This document shows positions 15,147-45,374 of a DNA stretch of 64,000 nucleotides, one piece after another (position 1 is the stretch's first letter; each line of letters opens with the position of its first letter). A program made the position numbers and the translations under genes. The stretch is from Pseudisothecium myosuroides (Eukaryota > Streptophyta > Bryopsida > Hypnales > Lembophyllaceae): NCBI GenBank assembly GCA_951799445.1, contig CATOGU010000239.1, positions 186,001 through 250,000 on the forward strand, given 5' to 3'. The notes under the pieces are model-generated. The model had not been told where the DNA came from and searched no databases. It worked only from the letters and a program-made list of their open reading frames with translations.

Positions 15147-15620
15147 ATTTGATCCTTTGGCGCGGTTTATTGCACATCTGGAGGTGGAGTACGGCGGTTT
15201 CCGCCGCGACCAGATGCAGCGCATCCAGGATTTCCGTAGGGAGAAGGAGGATACGCCGCGCACCATGTACACGCGCCTGGCGCGATTTGCGGCTGAGTCT
15301 GGCGGAGTTTTCACTGAGAGTCAGCTTGTCAAGATCTTCTTATCGAAGATGGACAAGCGGCTCCTTGATCTAGCCTCACCTCGTATTATTCTCGATTTTG
15401 AGGGTAGAGCTACTTTGGCCCAGGCCTTCACAGTTGTGGAGAGGTGTGACCGAGCGTTGTGTCACCACGACGCCACTGACATGGTCACTTCCATGACAGA
15501 CTCTTCCAAGGGGAAGAAGACCCCTGCTGTTACTACCAGTTTGGCTGAGACCAAGCCATCAGGGACTGTACATTGTTGGAGATGTGGGCAGGATGGACAT
15601 TCAAAGAGCACATGTCTCCG
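15147..15620 (+). pseudogene. Retroelement gag fragment, paralogue of the 36.3 kb gag
   Basis: Encodes ARFIAHLEVEYGGFRRDQMQ through the zinc knuckle CWRCGQDGHSKSTC (C-x2-C-x4-H-x4-C), after which homology to 36317-36778 stops and the frame ends at once. Within it the junction ESQLVKIFLSKMDKRL is continuous, whereas the 36.5 kb copy lacks four bases (TCAA) there. Gag proteins form the particle that packages element RNA; the knuckle binds nucleic acid. No upstream or downstream element parts remain. Confidence 0.85.
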
Positions 15621-15784
15621 TCCTCCTCAACATTGATATTCTCGCACCTCTTGTAGAAGGCCTCAAGCTTTGGTATCTGCTCATCCATCTTGCATAGAGA
15701 AATAGAATAGCACTTGTTACAATCAGGTCGAGTCGAGCTGATTTGCTTTCGTCAGTGTGTTTCTTATGGTTTTGCTGGTCTCCC

Positions 15785-15991
15785 CATCCTAGCGCATGTT
15801 TTTAAAGAAGTGACCCCAAGGGGGGTCACCACTGAAAACGACTCCAATGAAGCCCATTCTTTTCCCACATGTCCCTAACCCTAGCTTGACCCTCCAGCTC
15901 AAAAATCACCCCATTCCCATACTTTATGCTACCCCTTTTGAATAACCCCCCCCATTACCCATCCTAGCGCATGTTTTTAAAGAAGTGACCC
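15785..15991. repeat. Direct repeat pair of about 34 bp
   Basis: CATCCTAGCGCATGTTTTTA followed by AAGAAGTGACCCC occurs at about 15785-15818 and 15958-15991, bracketing the left arm of the inverted repeat. Confidence 0.8.
15818..15952. repeat. Left arm of a 2.3-kb-spaced inverted repeat
   Basis: From AAGGGGGGTCACCACTGAAAA to ACCCCTTTTGAATAACCCC. The near-identical reverse complement is at 18031-18163. Between the arms lies the 5.8S rRNA fragment. Confidence 0.8.
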
Positions 15992-16105
15992 CTCTAGTCA
16001 CAAAAAACGTGTGAAGGAATAGTAAATGCGTGTAAAGGAATAGTAAATGACCTTGCCTTTTTGTCTCCCTCTACACCCATTCAATTTAAATTCTAAGTCC
16101 AGAAC

Positions 16106-16213
16106 GGGAAAAAGTTGTAAGAGCCAATCATCTTCCTTGAATCCCCGATCTATTCAAGAACTTGCAAGTGAACGGTTTTTGAAAGGTCTAGGAACATAAG
16201 TAGAGACCTATGA
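16106..16213. repeat. Dispersed repeat Y, copy 1 (empty site)
   Basis: Direct copy of 19298-19404 (GGGAAAAAGTTGTAAG, GTGAACGGTTTTTGAAAGGT, GACCTATG). This copy continues CCTATGACA without interruption, whereas the 19.4 kb copy has a 203-bp palindrome inserted after CCTATG. Confidence 0.75.
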
Positions 16214-16329
16214 CACAAGTCCTTCAAAAATTCATAAGTAACTCAAAAATGCTTCAAAAAATATGAAACAACTTGTGTTACATTTTGCATCACTTTATCT
16301 TTCTCTGAAAAATGATTTAAAAATCCTCC

Positions 16330-16930
16330 CATTCACGGAAGACCTTGAAAAAGGGAGACAAACCCTTAAATGCTCGGTTTACGGACCTCCTACCTTAGAG
16401 AGGACGAGGAGGATAGGGGAAGCGGAAGGGGAGGGAGAGCCGGGCTTTGGCTGGTTTTCATGCCGGGTATCAATTGTATGGTCTGTCATTGTGTGAAAAT
16501 GATTGGTTGTCCTTGGACGACAGGGACAGGGGCGGCGGCTGTCGCTGTCGAGCGGTTTTAGAAAGGTAGGTGGAGGGTATGTGCAGGGTATAGGGAGGGT
16601 GTATGGTGGGTTTGGAGAGGGTATAGGGAAGGTTATCGAGGGGTCTTGTGTTGAGGCGGTTCAGAGTCGGTGGGACAGGTGTTGGTGGGTGTGGTTCCGG
16701 GCCGGTTATCTTGGGGGGTCTAGGGCCTCCTAGCTCTGCAAACCCGGAAATCACGGATTGGAATCCGAAGGTCCAATCGGCACTGCGGGTGAGCACAAGT
16801 TCTAATATAAACCCCTCCAGAGGGTCCGGCCCGGAGCTCCAATCCGCCAATGGAAAGTGGCCCTAAGAAGGGCCTCTTCATACTAAGAGCCGCTTTACAT
16901 TTGGGAGCCGGGCTACTGGCATGTGTCAAA
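16330..16930. other. GC-richer region, no recognised gene
   Basis: Overlapping open frames on both strands, including an extended G-rich strand at 16560-16730. No domain recognised. Confidence 0.3.
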
Positions 16931-17124
16931 GGCCAAGAATCCTCCCTTTTGATTGGATAGGAGGCTGAAATCAGTTCCAACCCAATGCACCGACGCTGCC
17001 TTGAACGTGACTGAGTCTCGCTTGATACCGAGGAACTGTGGGAGTCCCGCCAGGAGTTGGTGTGCTAGCGCCGGCTGCGGCTGCGGCTCTCGAGTTGTGA
17101 GGAGGATGCGAACCGAGATAACAC
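16931..17124 (+). other. Probable ITS1 remnant
   Basis: Lies directly 5' of the 5.8S sequence, moderately GC-rich. Its 18S-proximal end is not present. Assigned by position only. Confidence 0.45.
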
Positions 17125-17283
17125 AACACAACTCTCAGCAACGGATATCTTGGCTCTTGCAACGATGAAGAACGCAGCGAAATGCGATACGTAGTGTGAA
17201 TTGCAGAATTCCGCGAATCATCGAGTCTTTGAACGCAAGTTGCGCCCGAGGCTTGTCCGAGGGCATTTCCGCTAGAGCGTCAC
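17125..17283 (+). rRNA. 5.8S rRNA (isolated copy)
   Basis: Contains CAACGGATATCTTGGCTCTT, CGATGAAGAACGCAGCGAAA, GAATTGCAGAATTCCGCGAA and TCGAGTCTTTGAACGCA, the universal 5.8S landmarks in order and in green-plant form (GAATTGCAGAATTCC). The end is placed near AGCGTCA by comparison with other plants. 5.8S rRNA pairs with large-subunit rRNA in the ribosome. No 18S or 25S rRNA is present on either side, so this is a dispersed piece of the 45S cistron, probably not expressed as part of one. Confidence 0.9.
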
Positions 17284-17390
17284 CGCGCCCCCCAAACACC
17301 GATCCAAGCGCGCGCAAGTGTGCTGATGGGGTCGAGTGGAGCTGGCCGTCCCGACCTGGCGTCATCTAACCCCAGCCATCAATGCAGGGG
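17284..17390 (+). other. Probable ITS2 remnant
   Basis: Follows 5.8S directly; contains GAGCTGGCCGTCCCGACCT, reminiscent of an ITS2 helix. The sequence then becomes unrelated without a 25S start. Confidence 0.45.
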
Positions 17391-18030
17391 GTGCGTAAAT
17401 AGTTTTCTCAGCGAATTTTGGATTCTTTGTAGGAATTGTCATGAACCCATTCGTTTTAGGATGAACATCTGATGAAAGGTGAACAATTGTGGATGTGCGT
17501 GAATGATTGATGATTTTGAAGGATGGCGTGGGTGGGTGGGGATGAAATGAGGGGAGGAGTGGTAGTGCAAATTTGGGAGGCAAAATCACCTCCACAGAAC
17601 TCCAATTAAAATTCTCGAAAGCCCCTACTGCGGCCGAGCCATCTCGCCGGACGGGTAGGTCGAAGGGGCTGCCCGGAGCGGGGGCTGGCCCTGCCCCAGA
17701 TGAAAATATCCACGGAGCCGGAGCGACGGAGAGGGGACGACCGGAAGTGAGATTTTTTCGTCGGGTAAGACGAGAAGTGGGTGACGACGGCGCTATCATC
17801 GAATCTCCGACGAGGAACGATATTGGCGAGGAGGGCATTATTTTTATTATTAAATTTCTGATTTCATATATCGTTCTGAACTTTTTTATAGGGGGTTCCA
17901 AATCAGATTGTGTGAGAGATCTAGCGTGCCAGCGACGTCGCATGTGTGCTCCCATGTGGGCTCTGCCCTCACTTCATTTGATCAGCCACCCCAACAGCGT
18001 CTCTCATTAGTGCTCTCTGGATCCTGCACC
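17391..18030. other. No recognised gene
   Basis: Long overlapping frames on both strands (minus 17362-17955, plus 17573-18010) have no recognisable motif and look like chance openings in GC-richer DNA. Confidence 0.3.
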
Positions 18031-18163
18031 GGGGTTTATTCAAAAGGGGTAGCATAAAGTATGGGAATGGGGTGATTTTTGAGCTGGAGGGTCAAGCTAG
18101 GGTTAGGGACATGTGGGAAAAAAATGGGCTTCATTGGAGTCTTTTTCAGTGGTGACCCCCCTT
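18031..18163. repeat. Right arm of the inverted repeat
   Basis: Reverse complement of 15818-15952 with only a few differences (for example an extended A-run at 18117-18124). Confidence 0.8.
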
Positions 18164-19077
18164 AAACTAATAATTTAGCAAAGATACAAAGAGTTGCATA
18201 GCAATGGGGAAAGGGTGTGTTCATGCTCCTTGCCTCTAGTTTTTCTTCCATTTCCTAGGCCTGGTACCTCTCAAACTACAAGATTCATGGATCAAGAGGA
18301 ACTGGTCCTAAGAGGTGGCTTCCAGTCCTCAACAATAAACAGAACCATAGTTCCCAAAACTTAGGCCGATTAGGAGTCCTGCCATTTCAAGACGATTCAT
18401 CCTCCGGAAATTAATAGTGAATGATGTGTTTTATCAAATGGTTTTCTTTTGTTTGAATGATCCTAAACCTTGGTATCGGCCTCTGACTCAAAAAACAACG
18501 ATTATTTAGTTAAAATGTCAAATTTTTGGCACATGGGCAGGAAGAATGAGTAGGGAAGAAGGTCCAGCTATTGATCTGAGGTTTTGCAAGTTATGGAGGC
18601 GGTTTTTAGTAAACCTGCGCTGTAACTAAGATTTCTACTCCAACACTCCCACGCCATGCCCATTTCTGACCTTAATTCATCAAGCCCAGTCTATGTATGA
18701 AGTCTCTCTTCCCCCTCCTATCCTTGTTAGTTGTTATCTACCTCTATTAACTGAATCACCTAGTGTAATTTGCATCGGCCAAATTTTGAGCTTTCGATCA
18801 GTAAATTGAGGACAAGTGTTTCATGAATTTATCTTGGAGTATGCTGTATGGTGGTTCTGATTCACAGCTCCTCTGCGCACCAGGTTACATTCACAACTCC
18901 AGGGGTCCACCTCGGCAACCATCTGGCCGTCCAACTAGGCCGTCGGATCGGTCCGTCCAACGGGGACCGTCCACATCGACCGTCCTTCGAGCTCGGAACC
19001 GTCCCCCCATCCGACTGTCGACATTTATCGTCGACTACGCCCGTCCGACGAGGCTGTCCCCACGGTACTACTCTCAA
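18164..19077. other. Intergenic, no gene recognised
   Basis: A CCGTCC-rich patch at 18900-19060 (GGCCGTC, CGGTCCGTCC, CATCGACCGTCC) opens frames on both strands but encodes nothing recognisable. Confidence 0.35.
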
Positions 19078-19196
19078 GCCACAAAGTGGGCGATGGGGGT
19101 TTCACCTCTTGTACAAGCACAGATTGTGCAAGTCAACCGTGACGATAGTTCACTAAAACTTCATTTCATGCAATTTAGGGTTTAGGTGCAAGGGAG
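19078..19196 (-). repeat. TTAA family B internal fragment
   Basis: Reverse complement of part of the 797-bp elements (about 47880-48000): CTTGTACAAGCACAGATTGT and CAAGTCAACCGTGACGATAG. Confidence 0.65.
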
Positions 19197-19297
19197 GCTT
19201 GTAACGCGTGCGGTCATTTTGAATTGCCCATGTAGACTCCATCTCAATGAATATGAGGTTGTTCTAAAATCACCCACTTACAGTCATTGTAATGCAT

Positions 19298-19404
19298 GGG
19301 AAAAAGTTGTAAGAACCAATCATCCTCTTGATTCCCCAAATCTCATCACAACTTGCAAGTGAACGGTTTTTGAAAGGTCTAGGGATATAAATAGAGGACC
19401 TATG
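19298..19404. repeat. Dispersed repeat Y, copy 2
   Basis: Direct copy of 16106-16213, interrupted at its end by the CACTA-type palindrome. Confidence 0.75.
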
Positions 19405-19607
19405 CACTACAAGAGAATGGGGTCTTTTAAGTAGTGTCCTAGACATCATGTCTTTTAAGTAATGTCTTTTAATGCGTCTTTTAAGTAAAATTTTACTGAA
19501 AAGACTGTCTTTTCAGTAAAATTTTACTTAAAAGACGCATTAAAAGACATTACTTAAAAGACATGATGTCTAGGACACTACTTAAAAGACCCCATTCTCT
19601 TGTAGTG
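19405..19607. mobile_element. 203-bp near-perfect palindromic CACTA-type foldback MITE
   Basis: Starts CACTACAAGAGAATGGGG and ends CCCCATTCTCTTGTAGTG. The two 100-base arms are exact reverse complements around a 3-base centre (CTG). It is flanked by ATG on both sides, a 3-bp target duplication as expected for CACTA (En/Spm) elements, whose plant termini commonly read CACTACAAGAA. Internally GTCTTTTAAGTA recurs several times. No coding capacity, so it would need a transposase in trans. Confidence 0.85.
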
Positions 19608-32544: not shown

Positions 32545-32800
32545 GGAGGGGTACCCCCGACGAATGTTAGAGAAATCCGCGGATTTCTGGGATGCGTTGG
32601 CTACTACCGGCGGTTCATCGACGGATATGCCAAGAGGGCGATTCCGCTCACGGAACTTCTGAAGAAAGATACGGAGTTTGTCTGGACCGGAAGGAGACAA
32701 TCAGCTTTCAAAGATTTGAAGACCTAGCTGGCTAAAGCTCCGATCCTATCCGTTCCGGATTGGGATCGGGAATTCCATGTCACCATTGACGCATCTGCAA
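32545..32800 (+). pseudogene. Ty3/gypsy polymerase fragment (RT thumb to RNase H)
   Basis: Frame [40 protein letters not shown], then FKDLKT, TAG (32725-32727), LAKAPILSVPDWDREFHVTI, DAS. This is the conserved junction after the reverse transcriptase catalytic core of Ty3/gypsy elements (LRxFLGxxxYYRRFI ... PLxxLLKK ... APIL ... DxS). The catalytic YxDD block upstream and integrase downstream are missing. The internal stop marks it as dead. Different in origin from the gag at 35.7 kb as far as one can see. Confidence 0.85.
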
Positions 32801-34129: not shown

Positions 34130-34157
34130 TTAACCCTTAAAGGCGCTCAGAGGTTAA
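34130..34157. mobile_element. 28-bp TTAA footprint element
   Basis: TTAA-CCCTTAAAGG-CGCTCAGAGG-TTAA: two termini of different families with nothing between. Its right TTAA is also the left TTAA of the family D copy. Confidence 0.45.
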
Positions 34158-34320
34158 CCCTTTAACGACTGGTCGACCAATTTTTGGTCGATTTTGACTC
34201 TTTTCACTTTGTAGAGAGAGCATATCAAGGAATTTGATGACATGGCAAAGGGGACGGGTCCAGGGAATTGGAAAGTGAAGAGTTTAGGACAGTAACCAAG
34301 CCAATCTGAGGTGGCATGTG
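34154..34320 (+). mobile_element. TTAA family D element, right end lost
   Basis: Starts TTAA-CCCTTTAACGACTGG and follows the complete copy at 44039-44460 through GAGGTGGCATGTGG, then diverges. Confidence 0.7.
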
Positions 34321-35665
34321 GCTACGTAGTGTGAAGCGCCAAGTTTCAAACTTTTGGCTCTACACCAATCATATTTTCAGATTTCAGTGGAACGTGAGAC
34401 GTAAGACATAGTTTGACCCGCCCCTAACTCTATGATCTCGCGTAAGTGTTTTGTTTGATGTTCATCTTTGCCTTTGTATGCAGGGAGGCCCTCATAATCA
34501 TACTATTGGAGGACTTGCTGTGTAGTTTCTGGAGTTTTCTGGAGATTTTGGAATAGCACTTGAGTGCACTGGAGTTGCTGTCAGAAGCTGTCAGACCTGG
34601 CCAGGAACGGGAGCGGGGCTGCGGGGCTGCGGTGCTGCGGCAGAGCCGGTGTCCGAGAGACGGCGTCGCTGGGCGGCAGCGGAGCGGGTCGGCAGGCGGG
34701 GACGGGACCGCAAGCTGGCTGCGGGGCCGGAGCAGGGCGTCGACGAGCGACGGCGTGGGAGTCGGAGCGACGAGCGAGGGCGGTGCGCGGCGCCGCTCGC
34801 GCGGGCGCGCAGGAGCTGCAAGCCAGGGTTTCATCCGGTTTCCTCATCCAAACTTCCCATCCACTCTTTCCCATCCAGACTGGTTTTCATCCGCGCAGTT
34901 CCATCTGCATTTTCTGGTTTTTCATTCATCTCTCTTCTTTCAGCTAGTTGCTGGAATTTTCAGCATTGCTGGAAATTTTCAGAGTTTGTAATTATTTTAG
35001 GGGAACTTTGAGTGTAGATTGTGGGGGCATCCGGGGGCCATATTTCACTTATTTTATATCAAAATGGGGTAGGAGAAGCCAATGTGTTCATTGGTGTACC
35101 TTATTTTTGATTTTAGTGAGATTTAGGTCACTCAATTTATTATTGAGTTAGGGAGTTTTTCACATTTCTTTCTACTCTTCTTTCTTCTTCCCTTTTCCTT
35201 TCTTTTTCTACACTTCTCTCTCTCTTTCTTCTATTCTCTATTCACCTCTATGTTTTTAGGGTTTTGAGAGATTTTAGGGTTTTTGAGAGTTTCTAGAGAG
35301 GTTTCTCTACTGTAGGGTTGTTGCAGCAGTTCCTTTTGCTACCACCACCAACCGCAGGCGTGTGCCGGTTGCGTGGATTTCTTTTTCCGCTTATTCGTTG
35401 TTTTGGGGAGAGGATCCAGTTTTGTTTTCTGGATTTTGTCTTGGTACCTCCCTGGTTGTGGATTTTATCCATTATTATTGTTATTTGTGGGGTGGGAGGC
35501 GTACCGTGGGGGTGAGGTCGGGTTAATCACCGGCGAGACCTTTTCTGTATGTTTTGAGCCTGTGTAAGCCGGAATTTATTACCGGTGGACCACACAGTTT
35601 GATTGTGGATGCAGGTTAGGTTGCCCTAAGCCTTAGATAGTTGCAGGTACCCAGGTGGTCAGTTT
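34321..35665. other. Upstream region of the gag gene; no LTR identified
   Basis: A GC-rich patch (34560-34830) is open on both strands without a motif. From 35160 there is a pyrimidine-rich stretch. I compared this region with 39628-40260 by eye and found no long direct repeat, and no recognisable tRNA primer-binding site before the gag start. It may hold a promoter and leader. Confidence 0.35.
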
Positions 35666-36535
35666 ATGGTGACGACCAGGGCCCAGTACTATCGGTCCCC
35701 GTCGCCAGACCACTTGGAGGATACCCACATCGAGGACTTTGGGCCAGTGGTAGACACCAACGAGGCTTTTCAGCCTATTTCGACGTTGGACACTACTAGT
35801 AGGCTTTGGGTCTTGAGTGTGGGTACGTTCGACGACATGGAGGACGATCACCAAAGTTCGGTTCGGGATCGTTTCTCAGGGCGAGCAGGAGGGATTTCCC
35901 TTCCTGATTGGAAGCTCCGCTTCCGCACATGGGCGAAGGAGAAGCGCCAGAGGTCACCAGGTTTCAACGACTGGTTTGCCTTTGAGCTTATTCCCCAGCA
36001 CTTAGAGTTTGAGGCACTGCAGACTTATGAGGTGTGGACTCAGGCTCATCAGCTTGAGCTCATAGAGGTGCAACTCTATTGGGAGACGCGCATGGAGCTC
36101 ATCTCTGCGCTGAAGGACGGAGCTCTGGCCACTGTTCCTTCTTCTATTGTGAAGGAGGAAGATACACCTGTTGAAGGTGAAGCCTCAGCTTCCCAGGATC
36201 CTCAGAGCAGAGCAGTTGCCACGAGATCGAGGGCATCAGCGAGCAGCACACCCATGTCCCGGTTAGCGCAGGCTATTCACGCCGCGTTGACTACGGTGGG
36301 ACCACCGCCTGGTTTTGACCCTCTAGCGCAGTTTATTGCACATCTGGAGGTGGAGTACGGCGGTTTTCGCCGTGACCAGATGCAGCGCATCCAGGACTTC
36401 CGCAGGGAGAAGGAGGACACGCCGCGTACCATGTACACGCGCCTAGCGCGATTTGCGGCCGAGTCTGGCGGGGTTTTCACTGAGAGTCAGCTTGGATCTT
36501 CTTATCAAAGATGGACAAGCGGCTCCTTGATCTAG
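35666..36535 (+). CDS. Gag-like protein of the methyltransferase retroelement (frame broken at about 36494)
   Basis: From MVTTRAQYYRSPSPDHLEDT the frame contains RFSGRAGGISLPDWKLRFRT, an N-terminal Gag-like block. A Ser/Ala-rich linker follows, then FIAHLEVEYGGFRRDQMQRI and TMYTRLARFAAESGGVFTES. These correspond to the capsid-like region of plant retrotransposon Gag (TMxxYxxRFxxL pattern). At 36494 the sequence reads CTTG-GATC where the paralogue at 15.33 kb reads CTTG-TCAA-GATC. This 4-base loss shifts the frame and the protein ends 14 codons later, at 36535, while the ancestral frame continues as the next feature. Start chosen as the first Met of the long open frame; no upstream in-frame coding resemblance. 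Confidence 0.7.
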   Translation: MVTTRAQYYRSPSPDHLEDTHIEDFGPVVDTNEAFQPISTLDTTSRLWVLSVGTFDDMEDDHQSSVRDRFSGRAGGISLPDWKLRFRTWAKEKRQRSPGFNDWFAFELIPQHLEFEALQTYEVWTQAHQLELIEVQLYWETRMELISALKDGALATVPSSIVKEEDTPVEGEASASQDPQSRAVATRSRASASSTPMSRLAQAIHAALTTVGPPPGFDPLAQFIAHLEVEYGGFRRDQMQRIQDFRREKEDTPRTMYTRLARFAAESGGVFTESQLGSSYQRWTSGSLI

Positions 36536-39500
36536 CCTCACCTCGTATTATCCTTGATTTTGAGGGTAGGGCTACTTTGGCCCAGGCTTTTTCAGTTGTG
36601 GAGAGGTGTGACCGGGCGTTGTGTCACCACGACGCCACAGACATGGTCACCTCTATGACAGACTCTTCCAAGGGGAAGAAGACCCCTGCTATTGCTAGCA
36701 GTTTGGCTGAGACCAAACCATCAGGGACGGTACATTGTTGGAGATGTGGGCAGGATGGACATTCGAAGAGCACATGCCCGGAGAAGCCGAAGACCCCTTC
36801 TCAGCCTGCTAAGGCTGCCAAGAAGGAAGAGGCGAAGGGTGAGCAAAAGTCCAAGAAGAAGGCTCTGAAGTGCTCACATTGTGGGGGCACTAATCACGAC
36901 GATGATCATTGTTTTCAGCTGCACCCTGAGCTGAAGCTTGCTAGCTACGTGGCTACCAAGTCACAGAGGGAGAAGACCTTGGAGGCGAAGATAGCAGAGC
37001 TGGAGGAGAAGTTGAAGACCTCTGCCTCATTGGCTCAGACTTCTACTTCAGGGGCTACTTCTCAGGCTAGGGTTGGTACTACTAGCTCTGGTCGCTACAT
37101 GTATGGAGCAGCTGGGGAGATGGGAGCTGCGGCTGCCACTCGGTCTCAGACCAGTTCAGACCCAGCTAGTGCTCCTCTGCCAGATGTGCCAGCCGTTGCA
37201 CGAGCTAGACACAGTGGCCCAGCAGATTCCATTGGCCAGGCACGGTTGCCACTATCTTTTGGCTTGACCGATGCTGTTGTTACGAGCAATCGCCCAGCTA
37301 CTTTACTTCCACACCGTGGGAGTTCGACCTCATCTGATACTCTGCAAACCTTGGCACACAAGGTTCTGCAGATGCCAATTTTTTCGGCCTCAGAGTTGAT
37401 TACACCTGGATTCCAGGCCTCTAAGGTATTCTATATGGTGGGACGTGTTATGGAGGGGAAGGCGGACATGCCATCCCTTCAGGTTTCTCAGGCGTTAGCC
37501 GAGACCTCTACCCTTCAGGATTCAGAGGCGCAGGCGAAGCTACGTGCTAAGCTTGCCGCCGAAGCCATAGCAGCATTCGGAGGGGACGCGAGTGGTCATG
37601 CACCACCTCCCTCTTCCACGGACGCGCCTCTAGCGGCGGGAGCAGCTTATCTTGCAGATGTTTCTACAAGATCCGCTAGAGAGCGTCAGGCTGTGCACCC
37701 AGGCATTGTTCGTTTGATTAACGACAACGGGGTGTTTATGGTGTCTTGTGGTGGAGAGCGTGGTCGTCAGGTCACTCCACTCAGAGTGATGATGGACTCT
37801 GGGGCTCAGCCTGTTATGATTGGCAGGCAGTTGGCAGAGGAACTTGGCGTCACAGCTAAGGACTTAGTGCCCTGCCCATTTACTATTGTTACATCAGTTG
37901 GAGGCATGGAGAGGGCTACAGGCTACACCAGAGAGCCTCTTCAGCTGATCTTTCGAGTGGGGGGAGGACCCACTTATTCCCATTTTTCGTTGCGGTGTGC
38001 TGTCACCGACGCTACCAACTATGACATTTTAGTTGGTCAGCAGGCACTTTACCCTCTCGGTTTTGGTATGGATAACTGGACCGAGGAGGCCTGGATTAGA
38101 CCAGGATGGTCTTCTGGTGATGGCCGGAAGGAGCTCATTCCTGTAGCATTTGCAGCACTGACTATGTCTATGTCTGCTGATGCTGTATTTGGATGCTCGG
38201 CATCTTTGGAGAGCCTTCCATCTGGCTTTACACTTTTGGAGGAGACTTTGGCATTTGCTGCTACACTCCCAGAGGATAGGCGGGAGTTACCGATTTTGGT
38301 AGCTACTCCACAGCATTCCAAGGACGCTTTGCCGCCTTGGATTGACCATCAGGAGTTGTCTCGACGATGTAGAGACATTGCAGCCTCTATTCCACTTGAT
38401 ACTTTGGCTTCCTCCTCCAGCAGCTCTATTTTGGGACGACCAATTTATTGGCGCCCATCTACGGACGGGATTACCGTTGTGGAGCTTTTTGGAGGTCTTG
38501 GTACTGGTTTGGCAGCCATTTTGGAGGCTGGGCTTGTGGTTCGGCGCTACATCCACGTTGATATCAGCTATGTGCCGACCAGATCAGCCCGTCATCATCT
38601 TCAGAGGCTCATGGCTCAGTTTCCTGAGCAATTGCCTCCCTCATCCATCCATGGATGTTTTGGCCACCTTCCTAGAGACGTTACCCTTATCAGTGATGAG
38701 GATTTGAGGAGGTTGGGCCATGTAGATTTTCTTGTGGCAAGATGGCCTTGCCAAGGTCATTCACGTGCTGGCGCTGGTCAAGGGTTGAAAGACCCGAGAT
38801 CAGGCCTTTTTATGGAGTTGGTGAGGATCACTCAGTGGTGGTATATCCACCAGACCACTCCACCAGGGTACATTTTTGAGAATGTACCCCCGTTGGGCGA
38901 TGAGCGGCTTCAGGTGATGGAGGATGGTCATTATATTTGCCAAATTCTTGGCCCTCCCACCTTTGTGGATGCTGCAGCACTGGGATCATTTGCCCATCGA
39001 CCTCGTTGGCTTTGGACCAACATGATGTCACATTCCATGTTGGCCAAGTCATTTTCCCAGGTTATTGTACCTCCAGGACGTGTGGTGAAGGATATTTTGG
39101 ATGACCATAGGGAGCCTTTGGCTGTGGCCAAAGATGATTCACTTCCCTTTGCTTTGGTCAACAGGGTTGGGAAGCCTTGCATGGCATTACCGACTTTTGT
39201 TACATATCCACATTCCTTTGCATTCAGAGCACGTGGACCTGGCATGGTGTGGGATTCTCACAGTCGCACTTATGAGGAGCCCACTGCAGATGAACGAGAG
39301 CGTGCCATGGGATTTTCTACTAGCACTACAGCAGCTCATGACCTCACTGAAGGTCAACGACGTTTTGTTTTGGGGCAGGCCATGGATCTTCATACCATGG
39401 TTTGGACCATTGGCATTTGCCTTGCTGTTCAGCAGCGACATGGCCATTTGTTCACTCTAGGGGCAGAGGACAATGGTCAGGGGGCAACGGGGATCCTTAT

Positions 39501-39627
39501 TCCACTCCGATCGCTCGATCGACGCGTAGATTCGAGAAAACAGAGCATGAATTCCAGACGAGAGTGTGGATTTGAGAACAGAGCATGGATTCCAGACGAG
39601 AGTGTGGATTCTGAAGCTGGAACGTGA
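36511..39627 (+). CDS. Zinc knuckles - retropepsin-like protease - cytosine-5 DNA methyltransferase fusion
   Basis: 1038 codons open without interruption. Residues 76-89 CWRCGQDGHSKSTC and 121-134 CSHCGGTNHDDDHC are two CCHC zinc knuckles. 154-170 is a short coiled coil. D429-S-G (VMMDSGAQPVMIG) with NYDILVGQQAL at 503-513 is an aspartic protease of retropepsin type. Residues 655-975 carry the methyltransferase motifs in canonical order: I ELFGGLGTGL (658-667); IV WPCQGHSRAGAGQG (745-758), catalytic Cys747; VI FENVP (789-793); VIII-like HRPRW (829-833); IX-like PTADERERAMGF; X-like RRFVLGQAMD (950-959). PCQ and unpermuted order place it nearer DNMT1/bacterial enzymes than plant DRM or DNMT3 (PCN). 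Such enzymes use SAM to methylate cytosine. No reverse transcriptase, RNase H or integrase lies inside or after it. The Met at 36511 is probably not the natural start: the frame is the continuation of gag after a 4-base deletion. Confidence 0.85.
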   Translation: MDKRLLDLASPRIILDFEGRATLAQAFSVVERCDRALCHHDATDMVTSMTDSSKGKKTPAIASSLAETKPSGTVHCWRCGQDGHSKSTCPEKPKTPSQPAKAAKKEEAKGEQKSKKKALKCSHCGGTNHDDDHCFQLHPELKLASYVATKSQREKTLEAKIAELEEKLKTSASLAQTSTSGATSQARVGTTSSGRYMYGAAGEMGAAAATRSQTSSDPASAPLPDVPAVARARHSGPADSIGQARLPLSFGLTDAVVTSNRPATLLPHRGSSTSSDTLQTLAHKVLQMPIFSASELITPGFQASKVFYMVGRVMEGKADMPSLQVSQALAETSTLQDSEAQAKLRAKLAAEAIAAFGGDASGHAPPPSSTDAPLAAGAAYLADVSTRSARERQAVHPGIVRLINDNGVFMVSCGGERGRQVTPLRVMMDSGAQPVMIGRQLAEELGVTAKDLVPCPFTIVTSVGGMERATGYTREPLQLIFRVGGGPTYSHFSLRCAVTDATNYDILVGQQALYPLGFGMDNWTEEAWIRPGWSSGDGRKELIPVAFAALTMSMSADAVFGCSASLESLPSGFTLLEETLAFAATLPEDRRELPILVATPQHSKDALPPWIDHQELSRRCRDIAASIPLDTLASSSSSSILGRPIYWRPSTDGITVVELFGGLGTGLAAILEAGLVVRRYIHVDISYVPTRSARHHLQRLMAQFPEQLPPSSIHGCFGHLPRDVTLISDEDLRRLGHVDFLVARWPCQGHSRAGAGQGLKDPRSGLFMELVRITQWWYIHQTTPPGYIFENVPPLGDERLQVMEDGHYICQILGPPTFVDAAALGSFAHRPRWLWTNMMSHSMLAKSFSQVIVPPGRVVKDILDDHREPLAVAKDDSLPFALVNRVGKPCMALPTFVTYPHSFAFRARGPGMVWDSHSRTYEEPTADERERAMGFSTSTTAAHDLTEGQRRFVLGQAMDLHTMVWTIGICLAVQQRHGHLFTLGAEDNGQGATGILIPLRSLDRRVDSRKQSMNSRRECGFENRAWIPDESVDSEAGT
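39541..39616. repeat. 38-bp tandem duplication at the 3' end of the methyltransferase frame
   Basis: CAGAGCATGAATTCCAGACG plus AGAGTGTGGATT starts at 39541 and again at 39579. Because 38 is not a multiple of three, the two copies are read in different frames (NSRREC versus PDESVD), so the last 30 residues are probably not ancestral. Confidence 0.8.
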
Positions 39628-41103
39628 TTAAGATTCTTGTGTTTAGCTTTTGTTAGCATTTATGGACAAAATTATTTTCGAGCAGTTGGATTTTCTGCTG
39701 AGACAAGTGCTTTTCTTGATTTGCATATTGCGATTAAGTTACAATGTGAACAACGCGAGTCTGATTTCGCATGTTTATCGCACTGGATTTTGGATTTTAC
39801 AGCGTCGTTGAGAGTTTTGTGTAGAAAGAGACTTGAGACGGAGTAATCTGAAGTTAGAATGGCTTCATTTAGAAACACTTTGGAGGATCTCTTGTTGTGA
39901 TGCTTGCTCAACGTTTTTTTACAGCCTGTAATTTGATGCATCGGGGACCGAATTGTTGTTGTTGCTTGCTTGCATGTTGTTGTAAGGTAAAATTGAGCAG
40001 CATTATTAGTATAATTGTAGCTCGGTGAGCTTTTGTGAAGTGTCGGATGTTCAGTTGTCAGCTTGTTGTGTGTTTAGGGTTTAGATTGGAGTTCTCTTTT
40101 GTAACGACCTCCGGGATTAGTTAAGACGAGACTTTTTATGAGGTTTTTGATCCTTTGCGCTTGATTTTGTGATTGCAGGAATTTTTGTGAGCACGGTTAA
40201 GAGCTTCGGTGATTCACGTGTTAGGGTTTGGTGCGGGACACAGTGCACTCCCCATTTTTTTTTTAGGTACACGTGCGATCAAATGAAGGGGTATTTTAAT
40301 TGCCTTGGTCCTAAATTTAGACATGGCTTGGAAATAAGTTAGGGTCACCTTAATAGGCTTGAAATCTCTATAAATAATGAAGGGTATGATCTATTCTTCA
40401 ACTTCTTTGTTGGCCTCAAATGTAGTAGAGGTGTCGATCCACTCCAAATACAAATAGTGGGTTTTATTTATTTTTAGTTCTACAATAGGATGGCCAATAT
40501 ATTTTTTTTAAATCAATACTTTTATTAGAGGTAGGGGTTGGGGTTTTATGTTCAATTTAGCTTTAGTATTGCAAGGTATCCAAAGCAAGGTATCCAAAGT
40601 AAGGTATCCAATGCACGGTATCCAAAGCAGGATCCAGTAGGCACGTTGTTTAAGCCAGATATTACGATGTTCATGTTCAGATAGTACAAAGAGAGTGTAT
40701 TTAAAGCGTGCATGGGTTTATTCATTGAATTCCAATGGAAAGAACTGGATGGAAGGTTTAAGGGTTCACATTAATATTTTGTTGACGTTATCTCCTGGCC
40801 CGGGAGGTTTACTCATGCAACATCAATAAGCTTGTAAGCTTACTTACATTCGCCTGGTGTTTGGGAGCTTTTGGTTTTCTGTTTTTTCGACTTTCATTAC
40901 GTATTTATAATGAACATAGGGTATATAAAAAGATAACATTTATTTATTATAATGAAGCTAAGGGTACATTAAATTGCGTCAATTTAGAAATTTAGGTAAA
41001 GATAGCCCTATAGAAATTTAAATTTTTTACCTACATAGCCCTCCGTTTATAGGGCCTTGCACGCACGTACCCCACCAAAACTACGTATAGTGCACTCCCC
41101 GAG
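39628..41103. other. Downstream of the methyltransferase gene; repeats only
   Basis: TGTAACGACCTCC at 40100 resembles a plant LTR start, but no second copy is found upstream. About 40390-40460 is a family E fragment (CTCAAATGTAGTAGAGGTGT). 40571-40628 is a 15-bp tandem repeat, four units (GCAAGGTATCCAAA). No reverse transcriptase frame is present. Confidence 0.45.
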
Positions 41104-41826
41104 CCCCTAAAGGACCAAGGGCCCTTTTGAGGGACAAATGGGATTTGGGGCATGTTTCTATGGCTAAACTACTTTGCATGGTTTTCTAAAACTTTTGTTG
41201 AAGGTGAGGAATTCATGGACCTATGTGGGAATGTAATTTTTTCTTCATTTCAATATTTAGTGAAGAAGTTAAAAATGAAAATTTAGAAAAAGCTGCTCCC
41301 TGGGCAGCCAAAAACTTCTTCAAAAATTTCATTTTTTTCAAAATAAAAATCTGAAATAGGTTCTTTAGACTTATATAGACATGGGGAGTTTTGAAACATT
41401 CTACTTTGATAGTTGAGATGAAAGTTATGAGAAGTTTTAGTTTGCTGGTAGGTGCAGTTTTGAGAGAAACTACACCTACCCGCAAATTGAAACTTCTCAT
41501 AACTTTCATCTTAACTATCAAAATTGAATGTTTCAAAGCTCCCCATGTCTATGTAAGTCTAAAGAACCTATTTCAGATTTTTATTTTGAAAAAAATGAAA
41601 TTTTGAAGAAAGTTTTTGGTTGCCTAGGGAGCAGCTTTTTCCAGATTTTCATTTTTAACTTCTTCACTAATTGTTGGAATGAAGAAAAAATTACATTCCC
41701 ACATATGTCTTTGAATTCCTCACCTTCCACAAAAATTTCAGAAAATCAGGCAAAGTAGTTTAGCCATAGGTACATGCCCAAAATCCCATTTATCCCTCAA
41801 AGGGACAATGATCCTTTAGGGGTTAA
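41104..41826. mobile_element. TTAA family A full-length foldback element
   Basis: Left CCCCTAAAGGACCAAGGGCC (its TTAA lost), right ATCCTTTAGGGG-TTAA. The two halves, about 345 bp each, are inverted copies around GGTAGGTGCAGTTTTGAGAG AAACTACACCTACC. An RNA copy would fold into one long hairpin. The short frames at 41213-41758 belong to this repeat and are not genes. Confidence 0.85.
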
Positions 41827-43239
41827 AGACCTCCTATCTAATTTAATCTTAAGCCAATGAAAAAAACTTTTGACCAACCAAAGGTGAATAACATCTTCAC
41901 TTCACCTTAGAAAAACAACTCATGTTCTTCAAACATTAAGTTTACTACTTCGAATTGTACTTAGAATTTTTGTTCGCTTTCAAATTAAAAGTAAACAACA
42001 AATTGCTTTGAAAACAAGTTTCCAATCATTTCACGTATTGCTTCTTAATATAGAATGAACAAATTTGGTGCATTTACAAGAGTACATTTAAACCAAAATG
42101 GAAGATATGGAATTTACAAGGATAAATACTTAGATTCACTCAAGTGATTTATACCAAGTAAACAAATCTTCACCTTCATCCAAGGGGGCACATGACATGG
42201 CAAGTGAGCTGTATCTGAAACTCTTTAGGTTTGTAATTTGCTATTGGATAAACATAAGATAATGAGAGCCACTAACAACATTGTAAGGTCCTTTATCTAT
42301 TCCTCAATGCAAATTTTAATATATTATTCTACTCAATCGTGTTTTGAATTTCATTTGAATCAATTTTAAATGTATTCAATGTCACCATCGATGGCATGTT
42401 TTCTCAATACATTATCTAATTCAGTATTAAAAAAACGGACATTTTGATTTTAGTGTCCAAATAAAAACTCCAAATAACTGGATATTAGCCCAATATTGGT
42501 CTTTTTGATGTTGATTTTAAAGTTGAATCTCAGGTATTTGTTATCAAAAAAGTAGGTCTATAGCATAATAACAACGGGATACAAAAGCATATCACACTTT
42601 CAAATTACTTTGATTGGTATGATGAATATTCCATGGAAAACCCTTCAAAATGACAAGTACTACTCCCTGAGTGGCTCCTGTTATCTAATGTTTAAGGTAT
42701 GTACACCCATACCCGTGACTTTAAGCATTCTAGGGTATATACACTGATCAAACGAGCTTGAAAATAATATTGCTAGATTAGCAAGAAGGAATGAAAAATA
42801 TTGGCATCAATTTCAAAGTCTGAATTGCAAGCATTTGTTCGCAAACAATTTTCAAAGTCCAAAATCATTGAAAATCCATGGCCGTGAGTAGGAGATGCTA
42901 AAAACCACAGGATGGGGATTCTCAAAATCGTCATGCAGGTCACCTACAACCATCACTTTGTAACCCATAACCATCACTTTGTCACCCAAAACCATCACTT
43001 AAGCACCCAAAACCATCACTTAAGTTCCCATAACTACCAGATTTAATAATTTCAAATGACTGACAACTTGTGTCAGCCATAGGTCACGGCCAGGGGTACA
43101 CTCACGCGAATGGGTACACATACCTTACGCTTACAGGCAATTATAACTTTCAAAAATTTCAGATGTTCAAAAGCAACAGCAAAGGTATTTAAATCCTACA
43201 AGGAGTAAATGCCTTTGTTGGCTTGGAGGGGTTATGTCC
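41827..43239. other. Intergenic; small tandem repeat
   Basis: No gene. About 42950-43030 is an imperfect array of about 20-bp units (ACCCAAAACCATCACTT), related to 10160-10225. Confidence 0.45.
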
Positions 43240-44023
43240 TTAACCCCTGAGCGCTCAGCCCGTATTCACCAAAATCACAGTTTTTGGAGACCGACAACTT
43301 TGATGCATCCTATCTCAGTCAATTAGATGATCCACAAAAAGTGACCATTGAAAATAGTGAAACACCTACTCAGAAAATGGCTTGCAAATTTTGGGAACAA
43401 TCCACCGTGAGAGATGGGAGATTATAACATTTGATCAAACAACATGTGATGACAAAATCTCATTTTTTTGTAGGTAATTGTTACTTGATGATTTTTACAA
43501 AATTCCATGAGCTTTGGATTCGTCTCAAACTTTGTGAGCAGCAAGATTAGATGTGAATGCACACACTTGTAAATTATTGAAGGTGGTACCTCTCTTTACG
43601 TCAAGTTTTAGGGCTTCAAAATAGCTATTGCATGGAAAACAATGACCGGCACAATTGGTGACGGTTGCCATAATAAGGGTCTAGAACATGCTTGAACCCT
43701 TGCCAACAACTTTAACACTACCAAAATGCTTATATAAGGGAGCTTGTATGGGATATTGACCGGTTGTAGCATGTAAAATGCTACTTGCCACCACACCCCG
43801 TATGCCCTAGACCACTCCCAATATGGTTTTTCAAATAATCAAGTCTCTTACAACACTTGTATAACATATGGGTTTCTTTGTCATTACTTCATTGGCATGG
43901 ACAACTTGAATGCCTTCATAATTGTAGTTTGTAGCAAGACCAAAAAGTTAGATCTGGTCCCCAAAACTAGGATTTAAAATCCTGGGAGGCAATATCTCGG
44001 GCGCCTGAGCGCTTAGGGGTTAA
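43240..44023 (+). mobile_element. TTAA family C element, complete (784 bp)
   Basis: TTAA-CCCCTGAGCGCTCAG at the left and CTGAGCGCTTAGGGG-TTAA at the right. The inverted 15 bases match with one difference. It is the full parent of the truncated copies at 24923 and 28294. No coding capacity. Confidence 0.85.
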
Positions 44024-44038
44024 CTTGCCAATGACAAC

Positions 44039-44460
44039 TTAACCCTTTAACGACGGGTCGACCAGTTTCTGGTCGATTTTGACTCTTTTCAGTTTGTAGA
44101 GAGAGCATGTTAAGGAATTTGATGACGTGGCAAAGGGGACGGGTCTAGGGAATTGGAAAGTGAAGAGTTTAGGATAATAATCAAGCCAATTTGAGGTGGC
44201 ATGTGGCCGGAGGTTTGAAAAAACTAAAAGATTACTGACTGAAAATACAATGATAAATGCAAAAAGATGGCCATAACAACTAAAGAGTGATCATAATTCA
44301 TGATGCATAACACTAAACCCTACAAGATGCTTCCATACGTATGGTCAAATCTGTGATAGACATCTATTTTCAATAACCCTAAAATTTCCCCTAAATGAAA
44401 ATACAAAGAAATACAAAGGATTGCCCACCCTTAGAATTGACCCGGTCGTTAAAGGATTAA
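44039..44460 (+). mobile_element. TTAA family D element, complete (422 bp)
   Basis: TTAA-CCCTTTAACGACGGGTC and GACCCGGTCGTTAAAGGA-TTAA. Its right TTAA (44457-44460) is also the left TTAA of the next element. Confidence 0.85.
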
Positions 44461-45374
44461 TCCCTAAAGGACCAAGCCCATTTTTCACCAAAAACTCTAA
44501 AAAACTGCCATTTTTGAGCATTAACCAAATCTGAAAACAAAAATGCTTTTTTGCATAAATAACTGCAAGATCTTGTAGTGCAATAAATTTTGAAGATGTG
44601 GAAAAAGTTTCAGAATTTTTCACCAAGTGGATTGGAAGATAATGATTTGAAAAGTTTTTTTTGTCATGTGGAAAACTGGGCAGCTACCTTCAAAAGGTAA
44701 AATTTCTAAGAATAAAAGGCCATGTGAGCGATATTTCTCTAGATTCCATATTCTTACTAAGTAAGGTGCCTATCAAAAAAAAAATCAAACCATTTGGAAT
44801 TGTACAACACGTGGGAAAAAATAGGAAGTAAAAAGAAGTAGAAAAAATGGTTAAAAACACCAAATATTAATAATTTAGTTATGGAAACAAAAATGTTCAA
44901 TCCCAATGGTTGTAATGTTGCTAATACAATTTACAACTTTTGATCTTACATATTTTCTAAAATATTGAAAATTGAATAAGATAAGAGATTTCAAAGTATA
45001 TTTTAGAGTAGAGAATCCATAATTGCCCGCAAACAAAAAATCCTCATAACTTTCATCTCATCAATCCAAATGGAATGATCTAAAGATTTCCACATAAATA
45101 TAAATCTCTTGAACCATTTTCAAATTTGAGTTTCTGAACTAAAGATTTTTTTTAAAACTACCCAAGCTGTCTGCCAAACGTAGAAAGCAACATATTAGGC
45201 CATAACTTTTTGCTCACAATTCCAAACATCATGAAAGTTAGTGCAAATGAAAGATATTTGTCATCCCCACCATCTATTTGAATTTCAATCTAAAATACAA
45301 AAATCTCCAATCACAGGTACCTGCCCAAAATATCTATGTTTCCAAAAAAAAGCAGCTTGGTCTTTAGGGGTTAA
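44457..45374 (-). mobile_element. TTAA family A element (918 bp)
   Basis: TTAA-TCCCTAAAGGACCAAGCCC and CTTGGTCTTTAGGGG-TTAA. Interior related to 59206-60125. No coding capacity. Confidence 0.8.

Follow-up and report, generated by a model that had tools for sequence, protein, structure and literature searches.

A stretch of 64,000 nucleotides from the moss Pseudisothecium myosuroides (contig CATOGU010000239.1, positions 186,001 to 250,000, hereafter the window) contains an open reading frame (ORF) in which a retroelement Gag and protease are joined to a cytosine-5 (C5) DNA methyltransferase. Judged from its sequence and from its relatives, this is very probably a dead, 3′-truncated copy of a Ty3/Gypsy retrotransposon family of the KnitGypsy-Dnmt3 kind, in which a DNMT3-type methyltransferase precedes an in-frame UAG resembling a leaky stop.

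The original prediction, made from the DNA letters, described CCHC knuckles, a DSG retropepsin and a C5 methyltransferase in one frame, as a retroelement polyprotein of a kind reported in a charophyte. Translation of 36511-39627 and Pfam searches bear this out. Both knuckles read plainly as CX2CX4HX4C, and the C-5 DNA methylase profile (PF00145) matches at E 1.4e-10, above the cut-off, with the protease lying N-terminal of it (Asp_protease_2, E 7e-5, just under the cut-off). The ORF is not a chance reading, because it has 48 matches in the host genome (387.9 Mb in 222 contigs), a lower bound, 44 of 362 candidates having been scored. The ATG at 36511 does not mark the start of Gag, whose N-terminal part is encoded in another frame, in the ORF at 35666-36535. 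A second fragment at 15148-15614, 92.7% identical, joins the two Gag halves in a single frame; the Gag frame of the main copy is therefore broken.

The matching loci were grouped by eye. Ten of them, L001 to L010, are 97–100% identical and form the window group (the window copy is L003). More distant loci stand at 38–67%; those near 60–67% to the window are called here the nearer group, and those near 40–50% the farther group. Comparison with these relatives overturns one claim of the original prediction, that the methyltransferase occupies the place of the reverse transcriptase (RT). All 19 own-genome relatives that reach the place show a border between DNMT and RT, and the RT core follows in 18 of them, L027 having lost it. 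The odd order of the window copy arises because it has lost its 3′ half: nucleotide matches of L011-L017 (seven of seven) end at window position 39486, equivalent to residue 1086 of an open contig, L043, whose border stop is residue 1163, and the last 46 or so codons of the window ORF are not family sequence. No RT, RNase H or integrase was detected by Pfam in the six frames of 39628-44600, no RT of this family was found in the whole window by tblastn with the RT of L043, and none occurs within the 1.5-kb downstream flank of any of the ten window-group loci.

The flanks indicate that the window group is a single locus multiplied by segmental or allelic duplication. All four flanks tested (L001, L007, L005 and L004) are collinear with the window to about 31.03–31.06 kb, at 98.3–99.9% identity; this reaches about 4.6 kb upstream of the Gag ORF, across an S-adenosylmethionine synthase exon. 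In each of two contigs a pair of copies lies 73,138 bases apart. In L006 and L008 the DNA upstream of 35642 differs and all fetched downstream sequence is shared, which marks a breakpoint of duplication immediately ahead of Gag. The Gag frame is broken in all ten duplicates (L003 standing for the window) and the distance between anchors across the break is identical in all ten, for which a break predating the duplications is the simplest account.

The same flanks bear on whether the form without RT could be non-autonomous, spreading with the RT and integrase of its relatives. Such an origin would fit the ten copies at 97–100% identity, the differing upstream sequence of L006 and L008, and a 169-base direct repeat (93% identical) that brackets the window copy. 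We consider it most improbable, given the collinearity of the four flanks through the synthase exon, the repeated 73,138-base spacing, which denotes duplication of a segment or allele, and a search around the window copy that revealed no terminal repeats of the TG..CA type seen in the relatives. The 169-base repeat itself (34154-34322 and 44039-44207; spacing 9,885 bases, close to full-element length) is probably not a pair of long terminal repeats (LTRs): it does not end in TGTC..GACA as those of the relatives do, and its second copy lies directly against a dispersed repeat.

The locus could also be a domesticated host gene, that is, a Gag-protease-DNMT fusion freed from RT and integrase and kept as a methyltransferase. 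The whole matched ORF is free of stops in seven of the ten near-identical copies, and the methyltransferase in nine, in contrast to L011-L030, all of which hold stops in the matched part; a few window-group pairs also have a ratio of nonsynonymous to synonymous substitution rates (dN/dS) well under 1 (for L007-L008, 0.50 over the ORF and 0.29 in residues 1-640). This shared openness is not independent evidence, however, the copies being one multiplied locus, and their Gag part is broken in every case. The dN/dS of L003 against L004-L008 is 0.64–0.90 over the ORF, with methyltransferase changes almost all nonsynonymous (2–7 against 0–1 synonymous), and a conserved glycine of motif IV is replaced in six of ten copies. 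Rows for L009 and L010 were left out over the whole ORF and residues 1-640, their first codons being out of frame. The change counts are small, and they point to no clear purifying selection among the duplicates. Domestication thus seems very unlikely. With Gag broken, motif IV altered and no clear selection, the window copy is unlikely to methylate DNA today, and by its truncation and decay we class it as a dead relic.

Full-length relatives and the stop before reverse transcriptase

The order Gag-CCHC-protease-DNMT of the original prediction recurs in relatives from the same genome. In diverged relatives it forms the first half of a fuller plan, in which an in-frame UAG is followed by RT, RNase H, integrase and a PHD finger. 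RT, RNase H, H2C2, rve integrase and PHD finger follow the methyltransferase in L018/L032, L012/L034 and L011/L031: RT to PHD is one open frame in L032, a single stop precedes the PHD in L034, and the PHD lies in another frame in L031. A scan of the 3′ half in four relatives (L011, L012, L018 and L043) found RNase H, integrase and PHD finger in every one. The frames scanned gave no tyrosine recombinase (Phage_integrase) match, the integrase being of the rve type instead.

Three of the four elements tested carry a repeat A at both ends (L012, 295 bp, 99.7% identical; L011, 345 bp, 96.5%; L018, 396 bp, 99.7%); in the fourth, L020, comparison of the flanks gave no terminal repeat pair. In L012 and L011 the 3′ A is flanked on either side by a further repeat, B, of 97–108 bp, and L018 has a short B of about 13 bases, so that the terminal layout is A-coding-B-A-B. 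Full elements measure about 9.6–9.8 kb by coordinate arithmetic, and in all three relatives read they end in TGTC...GACA with 4-bp target duplications. On the order protease-RT-RNase H-integrase, the TG..CA ends and these duplications, the family is assigned to the Ty3/Gypsy LTR retrotransposons.

One relative stands outside the moss genome. L043 (CADCWO010000201.1), a 9.3-kb contig from a bin labelled as a cyanobacterial genome, contains open frames of 1162 and 1047 codons that adjoin in one reading frame, with only a TAG between them. Protease and methylase precede the TAG and RT to PHD follow it; the start of Gag is cut by the contig end. It is likely a mis-binned streptophyte contig bearing a eukaryotic-type retrotransposon, hence a binning contamination. 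Viral contigs gave a single distant match (L044, 35% over 142 residues).

The border between DNMT and RT was compared in 20 sequences, namely 19 own-genome loci (L011-L024 and L026-L030, L025 not reaching the border) and L043, leaving out the duplicates L031-L034 and a misaligned second row of L029 (33% identity). The border codon is TAG in 18 of the 20, TAA in L020 and GAG in L022, and the six bases that follow fit CARYYA in every sequence, as CAATCA in the nearer group and L043 and as CAACCA in the farther group. Since L018 and L019 are near-identical duplicates, and members of one group are related, far fewer than 20 of these sequences are independent; the strength of the case lies in the agreement between subfamilies that are about 47% identical in protein around the site. 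UAG-CAR-YYA is the published tobamovirus-type (type I) leaky-stop signal, described as needing only six following bases (PMC3542737); some rice Gypsy elements have been proposed as readthrough candidates (PMC2754532). The exact signal stands at the border of the present family; the published one was described for plant RNA viruses. Because DNMT sits before this conserved signal, the methyltransferase should be made together with Gag at the level of Gag, and RT at a fraction of it.

The stop could instead reflect decay or chance, the polyprotein being a single chain or RT coming from a separate message. Such an origin agrees with the TAA and GAG copies, with folds of the RNA after the border UAG, in which no shared structure was seen by eye, and with the further stops, one or more, that every locus from L011 to L030 carries in the matched part; because of these stops, the readthrough argument rests on decayed copies and one open outside contig. 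Decay does not readily account for the same codon, place and follow-on recurring in subfamilies so far apart in protein, nor for L043, in which the border TAG is the only internal stop in about 2,200 codons. With uniform bases, simple arithmetic gives about one chance in 1,500 that a random stop takes the form UAG-CARYYA, and six following bases are all that type I readthrough is said to need (PMC3542737). We regard decay or chance as decidedly unlikely.

Other traits of the relatives were noted. L012 and L018 have terminal repeats 99.7% identical, yet their coding regions hold several stops, as if damaged elements were copied or the repeats homogenised. At L011 (flanks L040 and L031), an 866-base upstream stretch recurs inverted, at 99.7%, directly after the 3′ end. 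L018 and L019 (C7, 11.203 and 11.230 Mb) match with equal scores, lie roughly 24 kb from each other in opposite orientations and represent an inverted duplication.

Methyltransferase, PHD finger and sequence change

A profile built from eight methyltransferase domains of the family was searched against the PDB. The best matches were DNMT3C, 3A and 3B (4e-11 to 2e-10 for isolated catalytic domains), followed by HhaI (9e-6), HaeIII (3e-5) and DRM2 (1e-4), and no DNMT1 row appeared up to E 0.01. Together with the PF00145 match, this upholds the methyltransferase reading of the original prediction and indicates an enzyme of DNMT3 type, closer to DNMT3 than to DNMT1, DRM or bacterial enzymes. Motifs I-IV-VI-VIII-IX/X follow the canonical, unrearranged order, unlike DRM, with a catalytic PC. 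The catalytic cysteine is kept in 29 of 30 genomic loci. The residue before W-P-C is glycine in 19 of the 20 loci outside the window group (L011-L030), and arginine in six of the ten window-group duplicates, including the window copy (ARWPCQ). An AlphaFold model of the domain had low confidence (predicted local distance difference test, 42.8); the 50 Foldseek rows shown for it were all DNMT3 entries, which for so weak a model is supportive only. In phage sequences, tblastn returned 334 records, the ten listed being methylases at 24–32%.

Between the window and L012, L013 and L016 of the nearer group, the methyltransferase dN/dS is 0.17–0.21 with dS of 1.07–1.23, which shows that the domain changed mostly silently as the subfamilies diverged. 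For RT, compared in frame, dS is saturated between groups. Window and L043 share 68% of amino acids in the methyltransferase and 71% in the protease, and 44–51% in the C-terminal part of Gag, the nucleocapsid and the linkers. In decayed copies, changes found in a single copy were mostly C-to-T or G-to-A, 242 of 321 in L011-L013 and 205 of 294 in L018, L020 and L023. Per available site these reached 27% in CG, 20% in CHG and 10% in CHH contexts in the former set, and 18%, 13% and 10% in the latter. Such a pattern would be expected if the copies are methylated, by whatever enzyme.

The PHD finger at the C-terminus of the family has its best PDB matches in CHD4, PHF12, KDM5, PHF21A, ATXR5 and UHRF1. 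Several of these fingers read histone H3 unmodified at lysine 4 (H3K4), and animal DNMT3 has an ADD domain with specificity for unmodified H3K4. By analogy, the pairing of DNMT3 and PHD in one polyprotein is suggestive, no more.

Coordinates and neighbouring features

Table 1. Parts of the retroelement copies in the window (positions of the 64,000-nucleotide stretch; residues counted in the translation of 36511-39627)
Feature	Position	Strand	Basis or remark
Gag N-terminal part, ORF1, 289 aa	35666..36535	+	other frame than the remainder; its end aligns with open Gag of L043
Gag C-part, CCHC knuckles, protease, methyltransferase and foreign tail	36484..39627	+	open 1047 codons; first ATG 36511
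CCHC knuckle 1, residues 76-89	36736..36777	+	translation; Pfam zf-CCHC weak, E 0.45
CCHC knuckle 2, residues 121-134	36871..36912	+	translation
Retropepsin-like aspartic protease, DSG, residues 422-509	37774..38037	+	Pfam PF13650, E 7e-5
DNMT3-type C5 methyltransferase, residues 641-992	38431..39486	+	Pfam PF00145; PDB profile search; family alignment
Motif IV RWPC, residues 744-747	38740..38751	+	catalytic Cys present; conserved Gly replaced by Arg
ORF tail, not family sequence	39487..39627	+	3′ truncation point 39486
Second fragmentary Gag copy, same subfamily	15148..15614	+	92.7% identical; open across the main copy's frame break

A remnant of Gypsy RT/RNase H lies at 32560-32799 on the plus strand, with one stop. 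Being 44% identical to the RT of L043 and 3 kb upstream of the Gag ORF, it was taken for a different Gypsy element and not for part of the window copy. The synthase exon upstream of the Gag ORF matches S-adenosylmethionine synthase at best at 6e-74 (entries that we take to be from Arabidopsis), with the next group at 5e-43. Another exon in the window matches chloroplast PsbO, at best at 1e-38 and in another entry group at 2e-30, presumably land plants and green algae respectively. From these two exons a streptophyte host is most likely. A full-length 5.8S rRNA match (149 bits) at 17130-17282, plus strand, is an isolated fragment of ribosomal DNA and internal transcribed spacer; no other Rfam match was obtained in the window at gathering scores, or in 15500-19500 at E 0.01. 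A large palindrome occupies 41104-41822 (arms of 338 nt, 90% identical, 6 nt apart), and similar copies at about 46.03–46.39, 49.38–49.74, 50.70–51.06, 52.2–52.6 and 58.4–58.8 kb make it a dispersed foldback family.

Comparison with known elements and a possible role

KnitGypsy-Dnmt3 from Klebsormidium nitens is a Gypsy element with a Dnmt3 and DIRS-like A-coding-B-A-B repeats (de Mendoza et al. 2018, PMC5890265). The present family fits this description: in both, a Dnmt3-type methyltransferase is carried in a Ty3/Gypsy polyprotein of a streptophyte, the terminal layout is the same, and the methyltransferase shows purifying selection (Ka/Ks below 0.2 in PMC5890265, 0.17–0.21 between subfamilies here). 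The two differ in that PMC5890265 puts the DNMT in the Pol ORF, whereas here it stands on the Gag-protease side, before the conserved UAG, and in the PHD finger that follows the integrase here. The words 'readthrough', 'UAG' and 'PHD' have no occurrence in the main text of PMC5890265. Two features, UAG-CARYYA between DNMT and RT and the C-terminal PHD finger, thus appear to go beyond that main text.

Sarre et al. 2025 call the LTR family Copia, whereas the RT-RNase H-integrase order of the present family is that of Gypsy. SymbioDIRS-Dnmt3 of Symbiodinium, both tested domains of which methylated CG de novo in yeast (PMC5890265), is likewise a retroelement with a captured Dnmt3. It belongs to the DIRS class, with a tyrosine recombinase, in contrast to the rve-type integrase and RT-RNase H-integrase order found here.

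In plants, the order RT-RNase H-integrase is typical of the Ty3/Gypsy superfamily, and chromoviruses carry a chromatin-reader domain after the integrase. That domain is a chromodomain, and a PHD finger takes its position in the present family. Target duplications of 4 or 5 bp are common ground with plant chromoviruses and other Ty3/Gypsy elements (PMC6317226); 'methyltransferase' does not occur in the main text of that 2019 survey of plant LTR elements, and the count obtained for 'PHD' was likewise 0. On PHD fingers with retrotransposons or integrases, the paper examined dealt with the name of a host gene, and a search on KnitGypsy-like elements led, among the 20 of 1,377 records listed, back to PMC5890265; this does not prove the absence of prior reports, many journals lying outside its scope.

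Several observations weigh against the interpretation favoured here, besides the further stops, the folds and the lower dN/dS of L007-L008 given above. Kinship with KnitGypsy-Dnmt3 rests on described features, and the isolated KnitGypsy methyltransferase produced no methylation in yeast, a result that its authors left undecided since human DNMT3B failed too (PMC5890265). Neither similarity to the relatives nor end motifs, whose matches did not exceed chance, revealed LTRs for the window copy. The dS between subfamilies is high, from 1.1 to saturated. Finally, conservation of the methyltransferase falls below that of RT or integrase and is close to that of the protease: L043 and L012 are 72% identical in the methyltransferase, 90% in RT-RNase H and 91% in integrase, and the corresponding values for L043 and L018 are 57%, 83% and 87%.

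Under the favoured interpretation, a truncated copy of a family with its DNMT before a leaky stop, most ribosomes would stop at the UAG and yield Gag-protease-DNMT, and a minority would read through to yield RT, integrase and PHD finger. Virus-like particles would then carry many methyltransferase copies per RT, the packaged enzyme could methylate the complementary DNA (cDNA) before or at integration, and the PHD finger may steer the integrase to a histone H3 state. That intact members methylate their own copies, as the original prediction proposed, is a reasonable idea; its other proposal, the silencing of competitors, is supported by no observation here. None of these activities is likely for the window copy itself. 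More tentatively, and with considerable doubt, we propose that the DNMT is a structural-level component of the particle, that the cDNA is delivered pre-methylated, and that a PHD finger of the unmodified-H3K4 type directs the integrase to silent chromatin, so that the element would write its own silent state for persistence.

The capture of silencing enzymes by retrotransposons is known. The present family adds another streptophyte genome and an environmental contig to the range of DNMT-carrying elements. Its PHD finger is a second chromatin domain in the same polyprotein, and the position of the DNMT on the Gag side of a stop in leaky context leads to the prediction that the methyltransferase is packaged in particles in excess over RT and acts on the cDNA.

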